This document shows, piece by piece, positions 4,079-24,318 of a stretch of 53,015 nucleotides of DNA; the stretch's first letter is position 1, and the number at the start of each line of letters is the position of its first letter. The stretch lies in the NCBI GenBank assembly GCA_902511755.1, contig CABXGL010000009.1, positions 1-53,015 of the forward strand, read 5' to 3'. The stretch comes from an uncultured Bacteroidota bacterium (GTDB lineage: Bacteria; Bacteroidota; Bacteroidia; Flavobacteriales; Flavobacteriaceae). The position numbers were made by a program, and so were the translations under genes. The notes under the pieces are model-generated. The model was not told the DNA's origin. It did no database searches and saw nothing but the letters and a program-made list of their open reading frames with translations.

Positions 4079-4624
4079 CTATAAACTGCTTTTAAAAGAT
4101 TTAATAAATCTATCAAAATCTTCTTGAGACTTTATTAATTTGTATTGATCCTTTTTAAAGAGTTCTAAATATATTTCTAGTTGTTTAGGAATTAAATAGC
4201 CTCTAATAGGAGTAATTAAATTCATCTTATCATCAAAAAAAATAGTGGTTGGGTATGCATTTATTCCTAAAAATTGAGTGAACTGGTGAGAAGAATTCCT
4301 GCTTTGAGACTTGCTTTCATCATAACGGATATTTTCAAATTTTCTTCCCATAAAATTTATTACATCATTACCTTCACCATTAAATTTTACAGCATAATAA
4401 TTTTTGTTAATAAAATCTGCTATAAACTTATTCTGAAAAGTATTTTTTTCCATTAATTTACAAGGACCACACCAATTCGTGTAAACATCCATGATTATAT
4501 TTTTTGGTAAAGTTTTTTGAGCTTCTATAGCTTTTTCAAAACTAATCCAATTAATTTCTTGTGAAGAATTAACAAAAAAACTTAAAAAAAATATTAAAAA
4601 TAAACCTCTATTCAATTTAAACAT
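4079..4624 (-). CDS. Exported thioredoxin-like protein
   Basis: This is a 181-residue protein with a signal peptide (hydrophobic residues 8-18, ending near NSSQ). A thioredoxin fold follows, with the redox motif Cys52-Gly-Pro-Cys55 inside YTNWCGPCKLME. The cis-Pro loop is visible as NAYPTTIFF. It probably reduces or exchanges disulfides of envelope proteins in the periplasm, in the style of the thioredoxin_7/DUF255-like fold. It lies 17 bases after the POT transporter start region on the same strand and could be co-transcribed with it. The redox partner is not evident from the sequence. Confidence 0.85.
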   Translation of the reverse strand: MFKLNRGLFLIFFLSFFVNSSQEINWISFEKAIEAQKTLPKNIIMDVYTNWCGPCKLMEKNTFQNKFIADFINKNYYAVKFNGEGNDVINFMGRKFENIRYDESKSQSRNSSHQFTQFLGINAYPTTIFFDDKMNLITPIRGYLIPKQLEIYLELFKKDQYKLIKSQEDFDRFIKSFKSSL

Positions 4625-4641
4625 TGGAACAATAGTAAAAA

Positions 4642-6144
4642 TTATTCTGCATTATGAACAAGTCTTTTTAATGGTTTTAAAATCAATATTACTAAAAGAC
4701 CAAAAATTGAACAGAAAATTGTTATTCCCGTAAATGTCCAATAATCTCCAACTTCACTAGCATTTTCACCAATTAATCCAGCAACTTTATTGCCAAGACC
4801 AGTTGCAGCAAAATATGCTCCCATCATAAAAGCTCCCCAACGTGCTGGAGCTAACTTAGTTATAAAAGAAAGAGCTACAGGAGATGCGCATAACTCTCCA
4901 ATTGTATGAAACAAGTAAGCCAATACTAACCAATACATGGCCGATTTTTTTATAATCTCTCCTGAAGCATCATAAGTAACTTCATTTGAAGCAATAGACA
5001 TAAAGAAAAAACCAAATCCCATAATAATTACACCTAAAGACATTTTAAAAAGCGAAGAATGTTCATATCCTGATTTTTTCCACCTAATCCAGAAAGAACC
5101 AACTAAAGTTGCGAAAATTAAAATAAAAATTGCATTAACAGATTGAAACCAACTTGCAGGAACCATAAAAGATCCAAGAGCTAAATCTGTCTTTTGAGAT
5201 GCATATAAATTCATTAAACCTCCTGCTTGTTCAAACGATCCCCAAAAAACTATAACAATTAAAAATGCTAAATAAGTAACTAATATTCTATCTTTTTCAA
5301 TCTTATTTCCATCATTATATACTACAATTGCAAATCCAACAGCAAATGCAATTCCAATTAAAAGCAAACCATAATCCCAATCTCCATTTAATCCTAAGTA
5401 CAACCCAAGAATCGCAGTTAGAGAAAACCCTATTAAAGAATTAGTTTTTTTGAAAATCTGTAAAAATAAATTATCTGATTTATTGTCATTTGAAGTTTCT
5501 AATTCAACCTTATTTCCAACATGAGATAAATATTTTTGTCCCTTCCAATAACCTAATTGGCCAATAGCCATTCCTATACCTGCTAATCCAAAACCATAAT
5601 GCCAATTATAGGTTTCGCCAATATATCCCACAAGAAGAGCAGAAACAGCAGCACCAATATTAATTCCCATATAAAATATATAAAATCCCATATCTCTTTT
5701 ATTATGGTCTGTTTTACCGTAAAGTCCTCCAACCATAGTAGAGATATTCCCTTTTAAGCATCCAACTCCCAAAACAATAAATGTCAATCCTGTATAGAAG
5801 GCCCATAGAGCCTCCACTGCTAAAATTCCGTGACCAAAACATAATAAAAGCCCACCAATCATAACTGACTTTTTTTGACCTAAATACCTATCTGCTAGAA
5901 TTCCGCCTGGTATTGTTGCCAAGTAAACAAACATAGTGTACCATCCATATAATTCAAGAGCTGATTTATCACTCCAGCCTAACCCAGGGTTTACTCCAGA
6001 TGTTTCTGAAACTAAATAAAGAACAAGTATTGCTCTCATGCCATAGTAACTAAAGCGTTCCCATAGTTCAGTAAAAAAAAGATAAAAAAGACCTATTGGA
6101 TGTCCAAGAAATGTTTTCTGTTGTAATTCATTTTGATCATTCAT
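4642..6144 (-). CDS. POT/PTR2-family proton-coupled oligopeptide transporter
   Basis: This is a 500-residue major-facilitator protein of the proton-dependent oligopeptide transporter family, which takes up di- and tripeptides across the inner membrane. The family signature FTELWERFSYYGMRAIL is at about residues 24-40, with GGILADRYLGQKK at about 79-91 and DMGFYIFYMGINIGA at about 151-165. Twelve or more hydrophobic helices can be followed. The gene lies 3 bases downstream of cutC, in the same direction. With the dipeptide enzymes at 39.7-47.4 kb it adds to the peptide-scavenging capacity of this organism. Substrate range cannot be read from the sequence. Confidence 0.93.
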   Translation of the reverse strand: MNDQNELQQKTFLGHPIGLFYLFFTELWERFSYYGMRAILVLYLVSETSGVNPGLGWSDKSALELYGWYTMFVYLATIPGGILADRYLGQKKSVMIGGLLLCFGHGILAVEALWAFYTGLTFIVLGVGCLKGNISTMVGGLYGKTDHNKRDMGFYIFYMGINIGAAVSALLVGYIGETYNWHYGFGLAGIGMAIGQLGYWKGQKYLSHVGNKVELETSNDNKSDNLFLQIFKKTNSLIGFSLTAILGLYLGLNGDWDYGLLLIGIAFAVGFAIVVYNDGNKIEKDRILVTYLAFLIVIVFWGSFEQAGGLMNLYASQKTDLALGSFMVPASWFQSVNAIFILIFATLVGSFWIRWKKSGYEHSSLFKMSLGVIIMGFGFFFMSIASNEVTYDASGEIIKKSAMYWLVLAYLFHTIGELCASPVALSFITKLAPARWGAFMMGAYFAATGLGNKVAGLIGENASEVGDYWTFTGITIFCSIFGLLVILILKPLKRLVHNAE

Positions 6145-16910: not shown

Positions 16911-18581
16911 ATGACATTACAACTTTGGATATGGTTAATGATCGGGTTAACTTTTTCACTATATATAGGAATAGCCATTTGGTCTAAAGCAGGATCAACA
17001 AAAGATTTTTATGTAGCTGGCACTGGAGTATCTCCTATTGCCAATGGAATGGCAACTGCGGCAGATTGGATGTCTGCTGCTTCTTTTATTTCAATGGCTG
17101 GCCTAATCTCTTTTATGGGATACGATGGTTCAGTTTTTCTAATGGGTTGGACAGGTGGATATGTTTTATTAGCTCTGCTTTTAGCTCCTTATCTAAGAAA
17201 ATTTGGAAAATTTACTGTTCCTGATTTTATAGGTGATAGATATTATTCTAATACTGCGAGATTAGTTGCCGTTTTATGTGCGTTAATTATATCATTTACT
17301 TATGTAGCAGGGCAAATGAGAGGTGTAGGTTTAGTTTTTTCACGTTACTTAGAAGTGGATATTAATACTGGTGTTATAATTGGAATGGCGATAGTATTAT
17401 TTTATGCTGTATTGGGAGGAATGAAGGGAATTACATATACTCAAGTTGCACAATATTGTGTGTTAATTTTTGCTTTCATGGTCCCAGCTATTTTTATTTC
17501 TATTCAAATGACTGGCAATCCAATTCCTCAACTTGGTTTTGGTTCCCAAGGTGCTGATGGGATTTATCTTTTAGACAAACTCGATGGTCTAAGTATGGAT
17601 TTAGGTTTTCATGAATATACATCAGGATCTAAATCTATGTTAGATGTATTTTTTATAACAGCTGCGCTTATGATTGGTACGGCAGGGCTTCCACATGTAA
17701 TCGTTAGATTTTTTACAGTTAAAAAAGTTAGTGATGCTAGAAAGTCTGCTGGTTGGGCACTTTTATTTATTGCTATTTTATATACTACTGCACCAGCAAT
17801 AGCAGTATTTGCTAGAACTAATTTAATTGAAACAGTTAGTGAAAAAAAATATGATGAATTACCTGGTTGGTTTGATAATTGGGAAAAAACAGGTTTATTA
17901 ACGTTTGATGACAAAAATAAAGATGGTATAGTACAATATGTAGCTGATCCACAAATAAATGAACTTACTATTGATAGAGACATAATGGTAATGGCAAATC
18001 CAGAAATAGCTGAATTACCAAATTGGGTAATTGCTCTTTTAGCAGCAGGTGCCTTAGCTGCTGCACTCTCAACCGCAGCAGGATTACTTTTAGTAATTTC
18101 ATCTTCAATATCACATGATCTTATAAAAAAAATAATTAAACCTGACGTTTCTGAAAAAGGAGAGCTAATTGCTGCTAGAATTTCTGCCTTTTTTGCAGTT
18201 GTTATGGCTGGATATTTTGGAATTAATCCTCCAGGATTTGTTGCTGCAGTTGTAGCGCTTGCTTTTGGTCTAGCTGCGGCTTCTTTTTTTCCCGCAATTG
18301 TAATGGGTATTTTCTATAAAAGGATGAATAAAGAAGGAGCTGTTGCAGGAATGTTAACTGGGCTTTTCCTTATGCTTTTTTATATGACAAAATTTAAGTT
18401 TGGATGGTTTGGTGGTGGAACAAGTGAAGATTGGTGGTTTGGGATTTCTCCTGAAGGGTTTGGAACTTTTGCAATGTTAACTAATTTTATAGTTTCACTT
18501 ATTATTTGCCATACAACAAGTAATCCTCCAAAAGAAATACAAGATTTAGTTGAAAAAATAAGAATACCTTCGAAAGAATAA
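16911..18581 (+). CDS. Sodium:solute symporter, VC_2705/ActP-like, large subunit
   Basis: This is a 556-residue SSS transporter with about 13 helices, in the subfamily that pairs with DUF4212. STKDFYVAGTGVSPIANGMA (about 29-48) is followed by ATAADWMSAASFISMAGLI, typical of acetate/propionate permeases. FVAGQMRG-like YVAGQMRGVGLVFSRYL and the helix with AAALSTAAGLLLVISSSISH are also present. Compared with ActP it has an insert at about 310-360 rich in acidic residues (DDKNKDGIVQY). It probably imports a short carboxylate such as acetate with sodium. It lies 7 bases before the DenV-esterase gene. Confidence 0.88.
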   Translation: MTLQLWIWLMIGLTFSLYIGIAIWSKAGSTKDFYVAGTGVSPIANGMATAADWMSAASFISMAGLISFMGYDGSVFLMGWTGGYVLLALLLAPYLRKFGKFTVPDFIGDRYYSNTARLVAVLCALIISFTYVAGQMRGVGLVFSRYLEVDINTGVIIGMAIVLFYAVLGGMKGITYTQVAQYCVLIFAFMVPAIFISIQMTGNPIPQLGFGSQGADGIYLLDKLDGLSMDLGFHEYTSGSKSMLDVFFITAALMIGTAGLPHVIVRFFTVKKVSDARKSAGWALLFIAILYTTAPAIAVFARTNLIETVSEKKYDELPGWFDNWEKTGLLTFDDKNKDGIVQYVADPQINELTIDRDIMVMANPEIAELPNWVIALLAAGALAAALSTAAGLLLVISSSISHDLIKKIIKPDVSEKGELIAARISAFFAVVMAGYFGINPPGFVAAVVALAFGLAAASFFPAIVMGIFYKRMNKEGAVAGMLTGLFLMLFYMTKFKFGWFGGGTSEDWWFGISPEGFGTFAMLTNFIVSLIICHTTSNPPKEIQDLVEKIRIPSKE

Positions 18582-18588
18582 AAGGTTT

Positions 18589-19755
18589 ATGACAAGAATA
18601 AATTTGGTGAATCCTTCAGAGCTACAAGACCAACATCTTATAGCAGAGTATAGAGAGATAACTATGGTTCCCGCAGCGCTAAACCGCACATTAAATAGTA
18701 AGATTGGTTTAAGGAGAGAAAAAATAAGCGCAAAATATACTCTTAATTCAGGTCATGTATATTTCTTTTATGATAAAGGGAAATATCTATATAATAGATA
18801 CCAAGATATTATAACAGAAATGAAAAATAGAGGTTTCAAACCAGATATTAACAGAAAATTTCCAATTAAGATTTTTATGGATAATAATCTATACAATGAT
18901 TGGATGCCAAGTCTAGATGATTTAAAAATAATACGGAAAAGGATATCAGAGAAAATTGCTATGAAACCAAGTTGGTATAAAAAAACAAAAAGTATTCTTA
19001 AAATACCTATAATATTAATATTCTTCTTTTGGAATACATTAAATTCTCAAAATTTAGATTTATTTGAAAAAGAATTTTTTATTGAGGGAAAAGACACGCT
19101 GAATTACAGAATTTTAAAACCTCATAATTATGATTCCAAAAAAAGTTATCCATTACATCTTTTTTTACATGGAGCTGGAGAAAGAGGAAATGATAATGAA
19201 TTACAGCTTGTTCATGGAGCTAAATTGTTTTTAAAAAAAGAAAATAGAGAAAAATATAAGTCTTGGGTAATTTTTCCGCAATCTCCAATAAATGATTGGT
19301 GGGGGGGGTATTATGCACCCTATGAATATGATTATAAAGTTGAAAAATCTGATGCTCTAGGTTTAGTTATTAAGCTCATGGATCATTTTGTTACTCGAAA
19401 AGATGTTGATAAAGATAAAGTATATATAAGCGGATTATCCATGGGGGGTTTAGGAACTTTTTCAATATTAAATCAAAGGCCTAATATGTTCGCTGCCGCA
19501 ACTCCAATTTGCGGGGATGGTGATCCAAATGCAGTCGATAATTTTGCAAAAAAAGTTAATATTTGGATTTTTCATGGTTCTGCAGATAAGGTTGTTAATC
19601 CAAATCAATCTTTAAAAATGGCCCAAGCGATAATTAATGCTGGAGGAAATCCAAAAGTTAGCATTTATGAAAATGTAAAACATAATAGTTGGGATGTAGC
19701 ATTTGCAGAAAAAGATTTTTTAAAATGGATACACTCAAAAACTAAAAAAAATTAA
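18589..19755 (+). CDS. DenV-like pyrimidine-dimer DNA glycosylase fused to a secreted esterase-like domain
   Basis: Residues 1-130 are a T4 endonuclease V (DenV) homologue, which cleaves at UV dimers. It begins MTRINLVNPSELQDQHL and keeps Thr2, Arg3, His16, Arg22 and Glu23 (Glu23 is the catalytic acid), but the usual Arg26 is Met. The domain ends in PSWYKK, matching the WYK DNA-contact tail of T4. Residues 125-150 look like a signal peptide (ILKIPIILIFFFWNTLNSQ). An alpha/beta hydrolase with LHGAGERG, the nucleophile Ser in SGLSMGGLG, and HGSADKVV fills the rest. An internal ATG at 18961 (residue 125) could start the esterase alone. No stop separates the parts. G8 tract at 19311-19318. Length 388. 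Confidence 0.85.
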   Translation: MTRINLVNPSELQDQHLIAEYREITMVPAALNRTLNSKIGLRREKISAKYTLNSGHVYFFYDKGKYLYNRYQDIITEMKNRGFKPDINRKFPIKIFMDNNLYNDWMPSLDDLKIIRKRISEKIAMKPSWYKKTKSILKIPIILIFFFWNTLNSQNLDLFEKEFFIEGKDTLNYRILKPHNYDSKKSYPLHLFLHGAGERGNDNELQLVHGAKLFLKKENREKYKSWVIFPQSPINDWWGGYYAPYEYDYKVEKSDALGLVIKLMDHFVTRKDVDKDKVYISGLSMGGLGTFSILNQRPNMFAAATPICGDGDPNAVDNFAKKVNIWIFHGSADKVVNPNQSLKMAQAIINAGGNPKVSIYENVKHNSWDVAFAEKDFLKWIHSKTKKN

Positions 19756-19759
19756 TAAA

Positions 19760-20470
19760 ATGAATTTAAAAAAATTAACATTTCTAATATTAATACTAAA
19801 TTTTATTATGGACAATAATTACTCACAGGATATAAATATTGCTGGAGGTGGGAATTTACAGGATTGGGCTAACCTAAATAAATACCAAAAGAACAATGAA
19901 GAATTAAAGGAAATAATTGAACCTAATAGAGTAGTCTTTATGGGGAATTCCATTACAGAAGGATGGAGTTTTTTTAATAAAAACTTTTTTATTGAAAATC
20001 CTTTTGTAAATAGAGGAATTAGTGGTCAAACTACTCCACAAATGTTAATTAGATTTAAATCTGATGTTGTAAACTTATCCCCTAAGAGTGTTGTTATTTT
20101 AGCTGGAATAAATGATATAGCAGGAAATACTGGGTCAATTTCGATTGAAAATACTGCAGAAAATATAATTTCTATGGCAGAAATTGCATTGGCTAACAAT
20201 ATTAGAGTTTTTATATGCTCTACACTTCCAGCATTAGATTTTCCTTGGTCTCCTGGATTAAATCCTTCTTCAAAAGTAATTAAACTTAATAAGATTTTGC
20301 AAGATTACTGCAAAAACAAAAACCTTGAATATGTCGATTATTATTCATTTATGTCTGATGAAAATGGCGGTTTAAAAGTTCCTGAATATACTTCAGCTGA
20401 TGATCTAGTTCATCCAAATAAAGCAGGATACAATGTTATGGAAAAAATTATTTTAAAAGCTTTAAAATAA
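19760..20470 (+). CDS. Secreted SGNH/GDSL hydrolase
   Basis: This is a 236-residue exported esterase or acetyl-hydrolase. It has a signal peptide ending near NNYSQ. The four SGNH blocks are visible: MGNSITEGW (block I, Ser), RGISGQT (Gly), LAGINDIAG (Asn) and DLVHPNKAGY (Asp and His). Such enzymes remove acyl groups from glycans or lipids in the periplasm or outside the cell. It lies 4 bases after the DenV-esterase gene, so two secreted hydrolases are made together. The GNSIT...GINDIAG pattern is shared with the platelet-activating-factor acetylhydrolase-like group. The substrate is unknown. Confidence 0.88.
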   Translation: MNLKKLTFLILILNFIMDNNYSQDINIAGGGNLQDWANLNKYQKNNEELKEIIEPNRVVFMGNSITEGWSFFNKNFFIENPFVNRGISGQTTPQMLIRFKSDVVNLSPKSVVILAGINDIAGNTGSISIENTAENIISMAEIALANNIRVFICSTLPALDFPWSPGLNPSSKVIKLNKILQDYCKNKNLEYVDYYSFMSDENGGLKVPEYTSADDLVHPNKAGYNVMEKIILKALK

Positions 20471-20527: not shown

Positions 20528-22846
20528 GTGGACAATAATTTAAAAAAATATAGGTTGCTTGGATATTTTATAATTCCATTTCTAGCAGCATTATTATTCA
20601 AAGGTTTATCTAATATTCCTAATGAGAGCACAACTGTAATTTCCAAAGAGGATGGTGCTTTCTCAAATTCTAATTTTTCGGATGAAGAAATAAACTTAGT
20701 TGATTTTAATTTTGATGTAAAACCAATTATTTCAGATAAATGTTATGCTTGTCATGGTCCAGATGAAAAGGCAAGAAAAGCCAATTTAAGACTTGATATT
20801 GAAGATGGTTTTTATGCTTCTTTAAAAGATAGTGAAAGTCATTTTATTGTAGATAGGAATAATCCAAATGAAAGTGAAATTCTTAAAAGAATAAATAGTG
20901 AAAAAATTGATTATTTGATGCCGCCACCTGATTCTAATTTAAAACTTTCAGAAAAGGAAAAAAATATTTTGAAAAAATGGATTGATCAAGGTGGAAAATG
21001 GGAAAAACATTGGTCCTATAATAAACCTAAGCTATCCGAAATTCCTTCAACTATTTTTGAGGATTGGACTTCAAATGAAATAGATTATTTTATAGCAAAA
21101 AATTTAGAATTAAAAGGATTAGAGCCTTCCGAAATGGAAAAAAAAGAAATTTTATTGCGTAGAGTTTCTTTTGATCTTATAGGTCTTCCTCCATCAATTG
21201 AACAGATAGATTCTTTTTTATTAGACAAATCTGAGAATGCCTATGAGAAGGTGGTTAATAAATTACTAGCATCTGATTCATATGGTGAAAGAATGGCATC
21301 TATTTGGATGGATTTGGCAAGATATGGTGATAGCCATGGGTATCAAGATGATCAAGAAAGAATTATGTGGCCATGGAGAGATTGGGTTATTCATGCTTAT
21401 AATAAAAATTTACCTTATGATAAATTTATGAAGTGGCAAATAGCTGGAGATATGTTGCCAAATGCTTCTAAAGAACAAATACTTGCATCAGGATTTAATA
21501 GAAATCATAAAATTACTCAAGAAGGAGGAGTTATTCCTGAAGAATATAGGGTTGAATATGTTGCAGATAGAACCATTACAACATCTACAATAATGATGGG
21601 ATTAACAGTTGAATGCGCAAGATGTCATTCTCATAAATATGATCCTGTTTCACAGAAAGAATTTTTTAACTTATTCAGTTTCTTTAATAATGTAGATGAA
21701 AATGGAATTATTGCTTATGGGGATACTGCACCAAAACCAAATTTAACAATTAAAAAAGGTGAAACAGAAAGTGAACTCAGTTTTGTAAATCTTCCTGATA
21801 GTATAAATAAAGTGACACTTATGGTTATGAAGGAATCTGAAAATCTTCGAAAAACTTATGTTTTAAATAGAGGAAGTTATGATGCCCCAACATATGAAGT
21901 AGAACCTGGAACACCTAAAATTATACTACCATTTGATGAAAAAAAATATCCAAAAAACAGAATTGGTTTAACTAAATGGTTTTTTCAAAAAGATAATCCT
22001 TTAACCTCCAGGGTAGCAGTAAATAGAATTTGGCAACAATTTTTTGGAGTAGGAATAGTCTCCACACCAGATGATTTTGGAAGTCAAGGAAGTAAACCTG
22101 TCAATCCGGAGCTTTTAGATTGGTTGGCATATACATATCAAAATTCTGATAAGTGGAATACCAAAAAGTTTATTAAAAGAATAGTTATGTCCTCAACTTA
22201 CAGACAATCTAGTAAAATTAAAACTGAAAATTTAGTCTTAGATCCGGATAATACTTATTTAGCACAATATCCTAGACAAAAACTTTCAGCAGAAATGGTT
22301 AGAGATAATGCCTTAGCTTCTAGTGGAATGTTAGTTAAAAGGATTGGTGGCCCTAGTGTGAAACCTATGCAACCGGAAGGTTTATGGGATGAAGTAACGG
22401 GGGGGGGTGGTGGAAGTTTAGCTTTCTATGTTCCTGACACTGGAGAAAATTTATATAGAAGAAGTCTTTATACGTTTTGGAAAAGAACAGTTCCTCCTCC
22501 TTCAATGATGATATTCGATGCTCCCACAAGAGATTTTTGTGTTACTGTTAGACAAAAAACAAGCACTCCATTACAATCTTTAGCATTAATGAATGATCCA
22601 CAATATCTATTGGCAGCTGAAACCCTTTCAAATAAAATTTTTGAAGAATCCTCTTTAGAAATAGAAGATAAAATCATAAAACTATATAGGAGTATCACAG
22701 CAAGACTACCAAATAATGTAGAATTAAACAAATTAATTAAGTACCTTGAAGAGGTAGGGAATATTAACAATATAACTGAAAAAGAAGCTTTTGTTTCATT
22801 AGCTGTATTAGTTTACAATTTAGATGAAACAACACAAAAAAGTTAA
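20528..22846 (+). CDS. Exported c-type cytochrome with PSCyt1, DUF1549 and DUF1553 domains
   Basis: This is a 772-residue protein of the type best known from Planctomycetes. After a membrane segment (about residues 9-25) comes a PSCyt1 haem motif Cys72-Tyr-Ala-Cys75-His76 (SDKCYACHGPDEKARKANLR). DUF1549 follows with ASIWMDLARYGDSHGYQDD, and ECARCHSHKYDP is a second CxxCH. DUF1553 forms the C-terminal third, with SRVAVNRIWQQFFG and YRRSLYTFWKRTVPPPSM. The family is of unknown function; the haem motif suggests electron transfer or oxidation outside the cytoplasm. The start is GTG. It has a G9 tract at 22399-22407. A DUF1501 gene follows 5 bases later, the usual partner. Confidence 0.9.
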   Translation: MDNNLKKYRLLGYFIIPFLAALLFKGLSNIPNESTTVISKEDGAFSNSNFSDEEINLVDFNFDVKPIISDKCYACHGPDEKARKANLRLDIEDGFYASLKDSESHFIVDRNNPNESEILKRINSEKIDYLMPPPDSNLKLSEKEKNILKKWIDQGGKWEKHWSYNKPKLSEIPSTIFEDWTSNEIDYFIAKNLELKGLEPSEMEKKEILLRRVSFDLIGLPPSIEQIDSFLLDKSENAYEKVVNKLLASDSYGERMASIWMDLARYGDSHGYQDDQERIMWPWRDWVIHAYNKNLPYDKFMKWQIAGDMLPNASKEQILASGFNRNHKITQEGGVIPEEYRVEYVADRTITTSTIMMGLTVECARCHSHKYDPVSQKEFFNLFSFFNNVDENGIIAYGDTAPKPNLTIKKGETESELSFVNLPDSINKVTLMVMKESENLRKTYVLNRGSYDAPTYEVEPGTPKIILPFDEKKYPKNRIGLTKWFFQKDNPLTSRVAVNRIWQQFFGVGIVSTPDDFGSQGSKPVNPELLDWLAYTYQNSDKWNTKKFIKRIVMSSTYRQSSKIKTENLVLDPDNTYLAQYPRQKLSAEMVRDNALASSGMLVKRIGGPSVKPMQPEGLWDEVTGGGGGSLAFYVPDTGENLYRRSLYTFWKRTVPPPSMMIFDAPTRDFCVTVRQKTSTPLQSLALMNDPQYLLAAETLSNKIFEESSLEIEDKIIKLYRSITARLPNNVELNKLIKYLEEVGNINNITEKEAFVSLAVLVYNLDETTQKS

Positions 22847-22851
22847 AATAA

Positions 22852-24318
22852 ATGGAAGAAATTCATAAACATTTTTTAAATAATAACAGAAGAAATTTTT
22901 TAAAAAAGGCTGGTTTAGGGATTGGAGGGTTAGCTCTAGGAACATTAATGGATCCTTTTAACTTTGGGAAAAATACAGATCCTTTTTCTTCGCTAGGAAA
23001 TAAGTCATTAAACCTTCCTCATTTCGCGCCAAAAGCAAAAAGAATTATTTATTTATTTCAAAGTGGTGGTCCATCTCAATTAGATCTGTTTGATTATAAA
23101 CCTAAACTAACTACAATGAGAGGTATAGATTTACCTGAATCTATAAGAAAAGGGCAAAGATTAACAGGAATGACTTCTGGCCAATCTAACTTTCCTCTTG
23201 TAAACAGTCTATATAGTTTTAATCAATATGGAGAATCTCGAGCTTGGGTAAGTGAATTAATGCCATATATTGGAAAAATAGCAGATGAATTATGCTTTGT
23301 CAAATCAATGCATACCGAAGCAATTAACCATGATCCAGCCATTACTTTTTTTCAAACAGGATCACAACAACCAGGAAGACCAAGCATGGGGTCTTGGATG
23401 AGTTATGGATTGGGAAGTCTAAATAATAATCTACCATCTTTTGTTGTTTTATTATCAAATGGAACTGGCAGACCAAAAGGTCAACCCTTATATTCAAGAT
23501 TATGGGGAAATGGTTTTTTAAGTTCCCTTCACCAGGGAGTTCAATTTCGATCAGCAAAAGATCCTGTTTTATATTTAAAAAATCCTGATGGTGTTTCACC
23601 AAGTGAGAGAAGAAAAATGTTAGATTATTTAGCAGAATTAAATGAAGAACAAGAAGCTACATTTGGAGATCCTGAAATAAGCAGTAGAATTGCTCAATAT
23701 GAAATGGCATATAGAATGCAAACCTCTGTCCCTGAAACTATGGATATATCAAATGAACCGGATCACATTCTTCAAATGTATGGTCCAAATGCACAAAAGC
23801 CTGGAACCTATGCGGCTAACTGCATCCAAGCTAGAAGACTAATTGAAAAAGATGTAAGGTTTGTACAATTATATCATATGGGCTGGGATCAGCACGAAAA
23901 TCTACCTACTCAAATAAAAGGACAGTCTAGTGATGTAGATCAACCTACCGCAGCATTAATTATGGATCTAAAGCAAAGAGGATTGTTGGAAGATACTTTA
24001 GTGGTTTGGGGAGGAGAATTTGGAAGAACAAACTATTGTCAAGGGAAATTAACTGATATGGTTTATGGGAGAGATCATCATCCAAGATCATTTACTATTT
24101 TCATGGCTGGTGCAGGTGTAAAACCTGGGTTTAGTTATGGAGAAACTGATGATATAGGTTATAATATTGTTAAAGACCCTGTCCATGTTCATGATTTACA
24201 AGCAACCATCCTACATCAATTTGGAATTGATCATACAAAAATGATATATAAACATCAAGGCAGGAGATTTAGACTAACTGATGTTCATGGTGAGGTTAAT
24301 AAAAACCTATTGATCTAA
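22852..24318 (+). CDS. DUF1501 family exported protein
   Basis: This is a 488-residue protein with a twin-arginine style signal (NNRRNFLKKAGLGIGG at about 12-27). The body is DUF1501, an alkaline-phosphatase/sulfatase-like fold of unknown function, found almost always beside PSCyt/DUF1549/DUF1553 proteins. LFQSGGPSQLDLFDYKP (about 67-83), HMGWDQHENLP, WGGEFGRTNYCQGK and the C-terminal GRDHHPRSFTIFMAGAGVKPG carry the metal-site-like residues of the fold. The RR signal implies export of a folded protein. It converges on the esterase gene at 24321, 3 bases away. Confidence 0.9.
   Translation: MEEIHKHFLNNNRRNFLKKAGLGIGGLALGTLMDPFNFGKNTDPFSSLGNKSLNLPHFAPKAKRIIYLFQSGGPSQLDLFDYKPKLTTMRGIDLPESIRKGQRLTGMTSGQSNFPLVNSLYSFNQYGESRAWVSELMPYIGKIADELCFVKSMHTEAINHDPAITFFQTGSQQPGRPSMGSWMSYGLGSLNNNLPSFVVLLSNGTGRPKGQPLYSRLWGNGFLSSLHQGVQFRSAKDPVLYLKNPDGVSPSERRKMLDYLAELNEEQEATFGDPEISSRIAQYEMAYRMQTSVPETMDISNEPDHILQMYGPNAQKPGTYAANCIQARRLIEKDVRFVQLYHMGWDQHENLPTQIKGQSSDVDQPTAALIMDLKQRGLLEDTLVVWGGEFGRTNYCQGKLTDMVYGRDHHPRSFTIFMAGAGVKPGFSYGETDDIGYNIVKDPVHVHDLQATILHQFGIDHTKMIYKHQGRRFRLTDVHGEVNKNLLI

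Follow-up and report, generated by a model that had tools for sequence, protein, structure and literature searches.

T4 endonuclease V and its relatives in the DenV family (PF03013, phrog_1183) are pyrimidine-dimer glycosylases of a common fold that share Thr2, Arg22, Glu23 and a Trp-Tyr (WY) tail. By homology to the T4 enzyme, we take Thr2, which directly follows Met1, to be the N-terminal nucleophile and Arg22-Glu23 to be catalytic residues; T4 endonuclease V also has an arginine at position 26. The PHB-depolymerase/prolyl-oligopeptidase-like esterases (3doh and 3wyd, LC-Est1C; PF00326, PF02230) carry the motif GLSMGG together with an invariant Asp and His. A third type of protein that bears on the present case is represented by ToxR and CadC, in which a cytoplasmic DNA-binding domain is followed by one membrane span and a periplasmic domain, illustrating that a Sec signal placed after a folded cytoplasmic domain can yield an N-in/C-out protein. 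DenV-type enzymes have been described for jumbo phages and for a roseophage (PMC7824862, PMC11288001), and Glu-23 is named in the title of a reference on this enzyme.

The window, that is, the whole stretch of DNA analysed (53,015 nucleotides of contig CABXGL010000009.1, assembly GCA_902511755.1, from an uncultured member of the Flavobacteriaceae, here genome G000), contains at 18589-19755 (+) a single open frame of 388 codons in which a DenV domain runs into an alpha/beta-hydrolase esterase (Table 1). The DenV-esterase fusion is real. Its novelty is the domain arrangement, the component families being already known, and no report of a DenV-esterase fusion was found among the matches listed from open-licence papers. 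The DenV part shares the fold, Thr2, Arg22, Glu23 and the WY tail with T4 endonuclease V but differs from it in being joined to an apparently exported enzyme and in lying in a bacterial gene row. The esterase part has the GLSMGG motif and the invariant Asp and His of the esterases named above, whereas its signal stretch is internal, behind 130 residues of another enzyme. The predicted product would share the N-in/C-out layout of ToxR and CadC; unlike in those proteins, each half is an enzyme and the hydrophobic stretch has the short length of a cleavable signal, and we claim no homology to them. Located 3' of the GDSL gene, at window positions 20528-24318, are two further genes, which we take to resemble a planctomycete-type cytochrome/DUF1501 pair.

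Table 1. Features of the fusion gene and of its neighbours, in window coordinates
Feature	Position	Strand	Evidence or remark
DenV (T4 endonuclease V type pyrimidine-dimer glycosylase) domain, residues 1-133	18589..18987	+	PF03013, PDB 2end/1eni, AlphaFold2 + Foldseek
Thr2	18592..18594	+	26/26 aligned rows
Arg22-Glu23	18652..18657	+	26/26 aligned rows
ATG of residue 125, candidate internal esterase start	18961..18963	+	conserved in G402; counterpart ATG in G004
Signal-peptide-like stretch, residues 125-153: basic DenV tail and hydrophobic core	18961..19047	+	hydropathy; unfused relatives
Alpha/beta-hydrolase esterase domain, residues 154-388	19048..19752	+	PDB 3doh, 3wyd; Peptidase_S9/DLH/Abhydrolase_2
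Sodium:solute symporter, upstream; stop 7 bases 5' of fusion start	16911..18581	+	PF00474
GDSL lipase/acylhydrolase, downstream; 4 bases 3' of fusion stop	19760..20470	+	PF13472

The PF03013 profile (Pyr_excise) covers residues 1-88 (E 2.8e-14, 53.7 bits; cut-off, 23), in sequence comparison residues 1-132 align with structures of T4 endonuclease V (2end, E 7.4e-22), and the DenV half also matches phrog_1183 (E 1.3e-45). An AlphaFold2 model of residues 1-154, built on a 26-row alignment, has a mean pLDDT of 89; when this model was compared with the PDB using Foldseek, four T4 endonuclease V entries were the only matches at E <= 0.001 (1eni, E 6e-9). A model of the whole fusion, in which the DenV part was covered by two rows only and had mostly pLDDT < 50, was set aside. 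An initial annotation of the contig had described a DenV catalytic set (Thr2, Arg22 and Glu23) with a WYK tail, and these residues are indeed present: Thr2, Arg3, Arg22, Glu23, Trp129 and Tyr130 are invariant in all 26 aligned rows, which include G000 and a second fusion-bearing genome, G402. The same annotation had remarked on a methionine in place of the usual Arg26. Although the fusion lacks the T4-type Arg26, Met26 is neither unusual nor a defect, since a methionine stands at this position in all 14 aligned rows and in 75 of 80 viral DenVs (the best 80 of 123 loci); the residue does not define the family. Met26 as the mark of a dead enzyme is therefore ruled out, methionine being the rule in this subfamily. 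Taken together, the invariant residues, the normal Met26 and a dN/dS of 0.10 (see below) point to a DenV domain that is a working enzyme.

In the esterase half, residues 171-382 match the esterase 3doh, the best solved relative (E 9.5e-36), as well as 3wyd, and there are profile matches to the Peptidase_S9/DLH/Abhydrolase_2 families; with the PHB depolymerase models of NCBIfam, the esterase stayed below the cut-offs. Ser284, Asp333 and His365, invariant in all 14 aligned rows, would form the catalytic triad. Hydropathy peaks at residues 136-150 in both G000 and G402 (mean 1.86 over 15 residues). This hydrophobic stretch comes after the WYK tail, which agrees with the earlier proposal that the DenV tail serves as the basic start of a signal peptide. 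Between residue 125 and the hydrophobic core there are five lysines in G000 and four in G402, and a similar signal-like stretch opens the unfused orthologues of the genus at the same place. A putative signal peptidase site lies before Gln154.

The same fusion was found, in frame, in G402 (JAAZZF010000001, a metagenome-assembled genome titled Flavobacteriaceae, 86% complete, compared with 68% for G000), the sole other genome found with DenV at this locus. Locus, junction and neighbours are the same, DNA identity to G000 is 92.6%, and the frame is uninterrupted, with neither a frameshift nor a stop codon that would separate two genes. The in-frame joining of a cytoplasmic-type repair enzyme to an apparently exported esterase, as described in the initial annotation, is thus borne out in a second assembly. 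By simple counting, the two genomes differ in DenV residues 1-133 by 22 synonymous and 12 nonsynonymous changes (dN/dS 0.103) and in esterase residues 154-388 by 29 synonymous and 14 nonsynonymous changes (dN/dS 0.102). Whereas ∼81% of changes would be expected to be nonsynonymous without constraint, the proportion is 12/34 in the DenV half (binomial p 7e-9); the deficit in the esterase half, with 14/43, has a p of 1e-11. These counts indicate that both halves are under purifying selection, and the deficit in the DenV half argues that the open frame is more than a product of chance. The linker, residues 134-153, has 2 synonymous and 7 nonsynonymous changes (dN/dS 0.79, again by simple counting); as 7/9 gives a p of 0.53, no constraint beyond chance was detected in it, which means that selection is seen on each half but not on the joint itself. 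dS is 0.37 in the DenV half versus 0.25 in the esterase half.

G000 and G402 group together both on DenV (SH-aLRT 93) and on the neighbouring proteins (100/99). Considering also the shared junction, the most economical reading is that the fusion took place once, in their ancestor, and that both halves were retained thereafter. Among the 22 genomes of the genus, DenV occurs in these two. The orthologous esterase stands beside symporter and GDSL genes in 18/22 genus genomes and at five loci that branch outside these. In all 23 loci the symporter lies upstream and the GDSL gene downstream (the latter matched in a short part only, near the contig end, in L046 and L053), with DenV between them in two; at the 21 other loci, the absence of DenV was assessed from gene spacing and from the genus-wide DenV search. 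Sixteen other genus genomes show the order symporter-esterase-GDSL without DenV, and in unfused esterases the frame opens on, or shortly behind, the symporter stop.

A stand-alone gene on a viral contig, L071 (IMGVR_UViG_3300009790_000069), encodes the closest DenV found, with 84% identity. It has its own stop after 141 codons, and its neighbours encode thymidylate synthase and peptide deformylase. Among 1018 records in a collection of isolate phages, the best match to the fusion DenV is 49% identical. In a DenV tree built on 35 distinct viral rows, taken from the first 41 of the 80 loci, and on 6 of 16 intended cellular rows, the window, G402 and L071 group together with an SH-aLRT of 99. Since the nearest DenV is viral and groups with the fusion, a transfer from phage is likely, though its direction depends on how the fusion nests among the viral sequences, and many forks of the tree are weak. 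We propose that a phage-type denV would have been inserted as a single gene between the symporter and secreted-esterase genes in the ancestor of a small, apparently marine, clade of Flavobacteriaceae. With the DenV stop codon missing, its basic WYK tail would then have run into the hydrophobic signal core of the esterase in one frame.

It might be argued that an assembly or sequencing error joined two genes, considering that G402 is a metagenome-assembled genome and that G000 is incomplete (68%). However, two assemblies that are 7.4% apart in DNA have an identical junction and an uninterrupted frame, making such an error exceedingly improbable. A missed indel in G000 is likewise very unlikely, and for practical purposes ruled out, because the corresponding locus of G402 holds an open fusion too. 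A different question is raised by G004 (PACX01000014, 93% complete), the sister of G000 and G402 (100/99), which gave no match to DenV in the search of the 22 genus genomes. Its esterase opens with ITM-NLNWYKKENIS..., a start that is longer than in other genus members and resembles the L071 DenV tail KIAMKPNWYRKSKS. In local alignments, the G004 start region scores 36 against the viral DenV (reached by 3/5000 shuffles), 39 against the G000 DenV (0/5000) and 34 against the G402 DenV (13/5000). Against the viral DenV, the start regions of the other 15 unfused members of the genus reach 17-24, and against the G000 DenV 17-25. In G004, the ATG matching 18961 is the only one upstream of the signal peptide, and the frame opens directly after two stops. 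We interpret the start of the G004 esterase as the probable vestige of a DenV tail, the rest of DenV having been lost. Alternatively, G004 was never fused: MNLNWYKK would have arisen there by chance, and DenV would have recombined into a G004-like gene at that match, so that the fusion would be confined to G000 and G402. This course of events needs no DenV loss, and a short match at the insertion point is also seen at the nqrF-apbE site described below, where the first bases of DenV and of apbE are similar. We nevertheless regard it as improbable, given that G004 matches the viral DenV in frame and at its tail, that so few shuffles reach its score, which none of the 15 other unfused members approaches, and that a WYK-bearing start occurs in 0/15 of those members.

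Whether DenV remnant or not, the start of the G004 esterase also bears on how the two enzymes are made in the carriers. We scored start codons with a start-context model contrasting 163 starts, inferred by rule and unmeasured, with 1100 internal ATGs (AUC 0.979). The start at 18589 scores 4.58 (38th percentile of true starts) and its G402 counterpart 3.58, whereas 18961 scores -2.32 (2nd percentile of true starts, above 85% of internal ATGs), with the same value in G402. Because the context of 18589 is normal and that of 18961 is poor, the main product is most likely one chain. We consider it probable that, after capture of a phage-type denV, this chain is started at 18589, inserted N-in/C-out and cut by signal peptidase, with topology, cleavage and repair activity all predicted from the sequence. 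In such a product, DenV would fold in the cytoplasm, and the internal signal, inserted N-in/C-out, would bring the esterase to the periplasm. Basic residues before a hydrophobic core favour the N-in orientation, which is favoured here because four to five lysines precede the core. Signal peptidase I would probably cut near Ser153/Gln154, freeing the esterase and leaving DenV with a short membrane-binding tail, and some esterase may in addition be started directly at ATG 18961. The claim in the initial annotation that both domains cannot work from one chain thus appears too strict, since an N-in/C-out layout of the ToxR and CadC kind, combined with a signal peptidase cut, would allow both. A less likely, though serious, alternative is that the gene has two products, a DenV-containing chain from 18589 and an exported esterase from ATG 18961, the DenV tail having been taken over as the basic region of the signal peptide. 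A separate esterase start at this ATG had been suggested before. In its favour, the ATG (residue 125) is conserved in G402, and the matching ATG of G004, the sole one before the signal peptide, has a good context (6.19, 59th percentile of true starts). Moreover, the separately inserted DenV of G324 and G1118 (see below) keeps its stop and overlaps the ATG of the next gene by four bases, so that starting a gene at the end of DenV is apparently used elsewhere. On the other hand, the context of 18961 in the fusion lies below that of ∼98% of the 163 starts and nearly equals that of the matching L071 codon (-2.63), which is a DenV codon only. The promoter element TAnnTTTG occurs in the first 512 bases only at base 11, far from ATG 125, in both genomes, and a relaxed match at base 441, seen in G000 only, lies 3' of ATG 18961. 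An ATG within a coding region is bound to score low in the context model, and the internal start is for that reason still a candidate; RNA folding predicted around 18961 (-5.6) is intermediate, the median being -3.5 for true starts and -7.1 for internal ATGs, and favours neither. Two further candidates were rejected: an internal promoter for the esterase, the sole TAnnTTTG match being the one at base 11, and ATG 18877 (residue 97), whose start context is good but whose place is taken by an isoleucine codon in G402.

PF03013 is rare, being present in 5/395 genomes sampled in the order and in 11/395 sampled in the phylum, two overlapping samples that both include G000. In these genomes no other DenV fusion was seen, the PF03013 frames listed besides that of G000 having at most 171 codons. 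Viral DenV fusions were likewise not seen in the best 80 of 123 loci, among which the longest frame, of 200 codons and with a proline-rich tail, is that of L187 (IMGVR_UViG_3300027813_002295). In G424 (L086/L038), DenV lies 3 bases 3' of the upstream gene and has a C-terminal extension to 152 residues.

In another genus of the family, the order nqrF-DenV-apbE is found in G324 and G1118 (L202 and L203, compared with L204; L105:2668-4819). DenV is present in 2/6 genomes of this genus and nqrF in 6/6; of the three in which the site was read (G324, G1118 and G1117), G1117 has nqrF directly followed by apbE and thus an empty site. The DenV insertion coincides precisely with the apbE start codon, and the DenV stop overlaps the start that follows it by four bases. 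The apbE gene of G324, just behind DenV, is split into two frames (4409-4819 and 4821-5396; L105:4409-5396), possibly by a break or an assembly error. In G468, DenV directly follows the stop of a ddl (D-alanine--D-alanine ligase) gene (L209:2437 onward), and no DenV was found after ddl in G419 and G432, the other two genomes of that genus (L210, L211). As in the fusion, a single phage-type gene lies 0-17 bases behind a host gene at both sites, with empty sites in relatives, but at the nqrF-apbE and ddl sites DenV keeps its stop codon.

The photolyase family PF03441 is represented in 0/2 fusion carriers and in 19/20 other genomes of the genus; the chance that both carriers fall among the 3/22 genomes without photolyase is 0.013, this absence being read from incomplete assemblies (G000 68%, G402 86%). 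The photolyase cluster of G004 is adjoined by a gene that we take, from its translation as for its neighbours, to be murA, and is flanked on the other side by a presumed DUF2911 gene. No match to murA was found in G000. G004 also has a second photolyase site, C4. In G402, a contig end truncates murA, and the DUF2911 gene adjoins a different frame, of 617 codons, that also reaches a contig end; in G401, also without a photolyase match, the murA and DUF2911 genes are adjacent. That DenV replaced photolyase in the carriers would be a lead to follow. One could go further and regard phage-type denV as an operon stowaway that has been captured repeatedly in flavobacteria: a bare gene inserted immediately 3' of a host gene (on a start codon at nqrF-apbE) that would use host transcription, replace photolyase for UV repair and, in the present locus, have become a membrane-tied repair enzyme made with an exported esterase. 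This extended reading, which we think unlikely as a whole, draws on the three insertion sites with DenV-free sites in relatives and on the distribution of photolyase between the carriers, whose assemblies are incomplete, and the other members of the genus.

The fusion is a clear example from nature of one gene that encodes both a cytoplasmic-type DNA-repair enzyme and an enzyme of the exported type. The steps that may have led to it can be read from the sequence, namely insertion, stop loss, use of the repair-enzyme tail as a signal peptide and, as seems to be the case in G004, loss with a remnant; their order is readable because the other relatives show no trace of DenV and the sister G004 may have lost it. 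The locus poses a testable question, whether an internal signal can take an enzyme across the membrane when a folded DNA-binding enzyme precedes it, and whether the same ATG serves for both. A further implication is that phage UV-repair genes may be acquired singly beside host genes.
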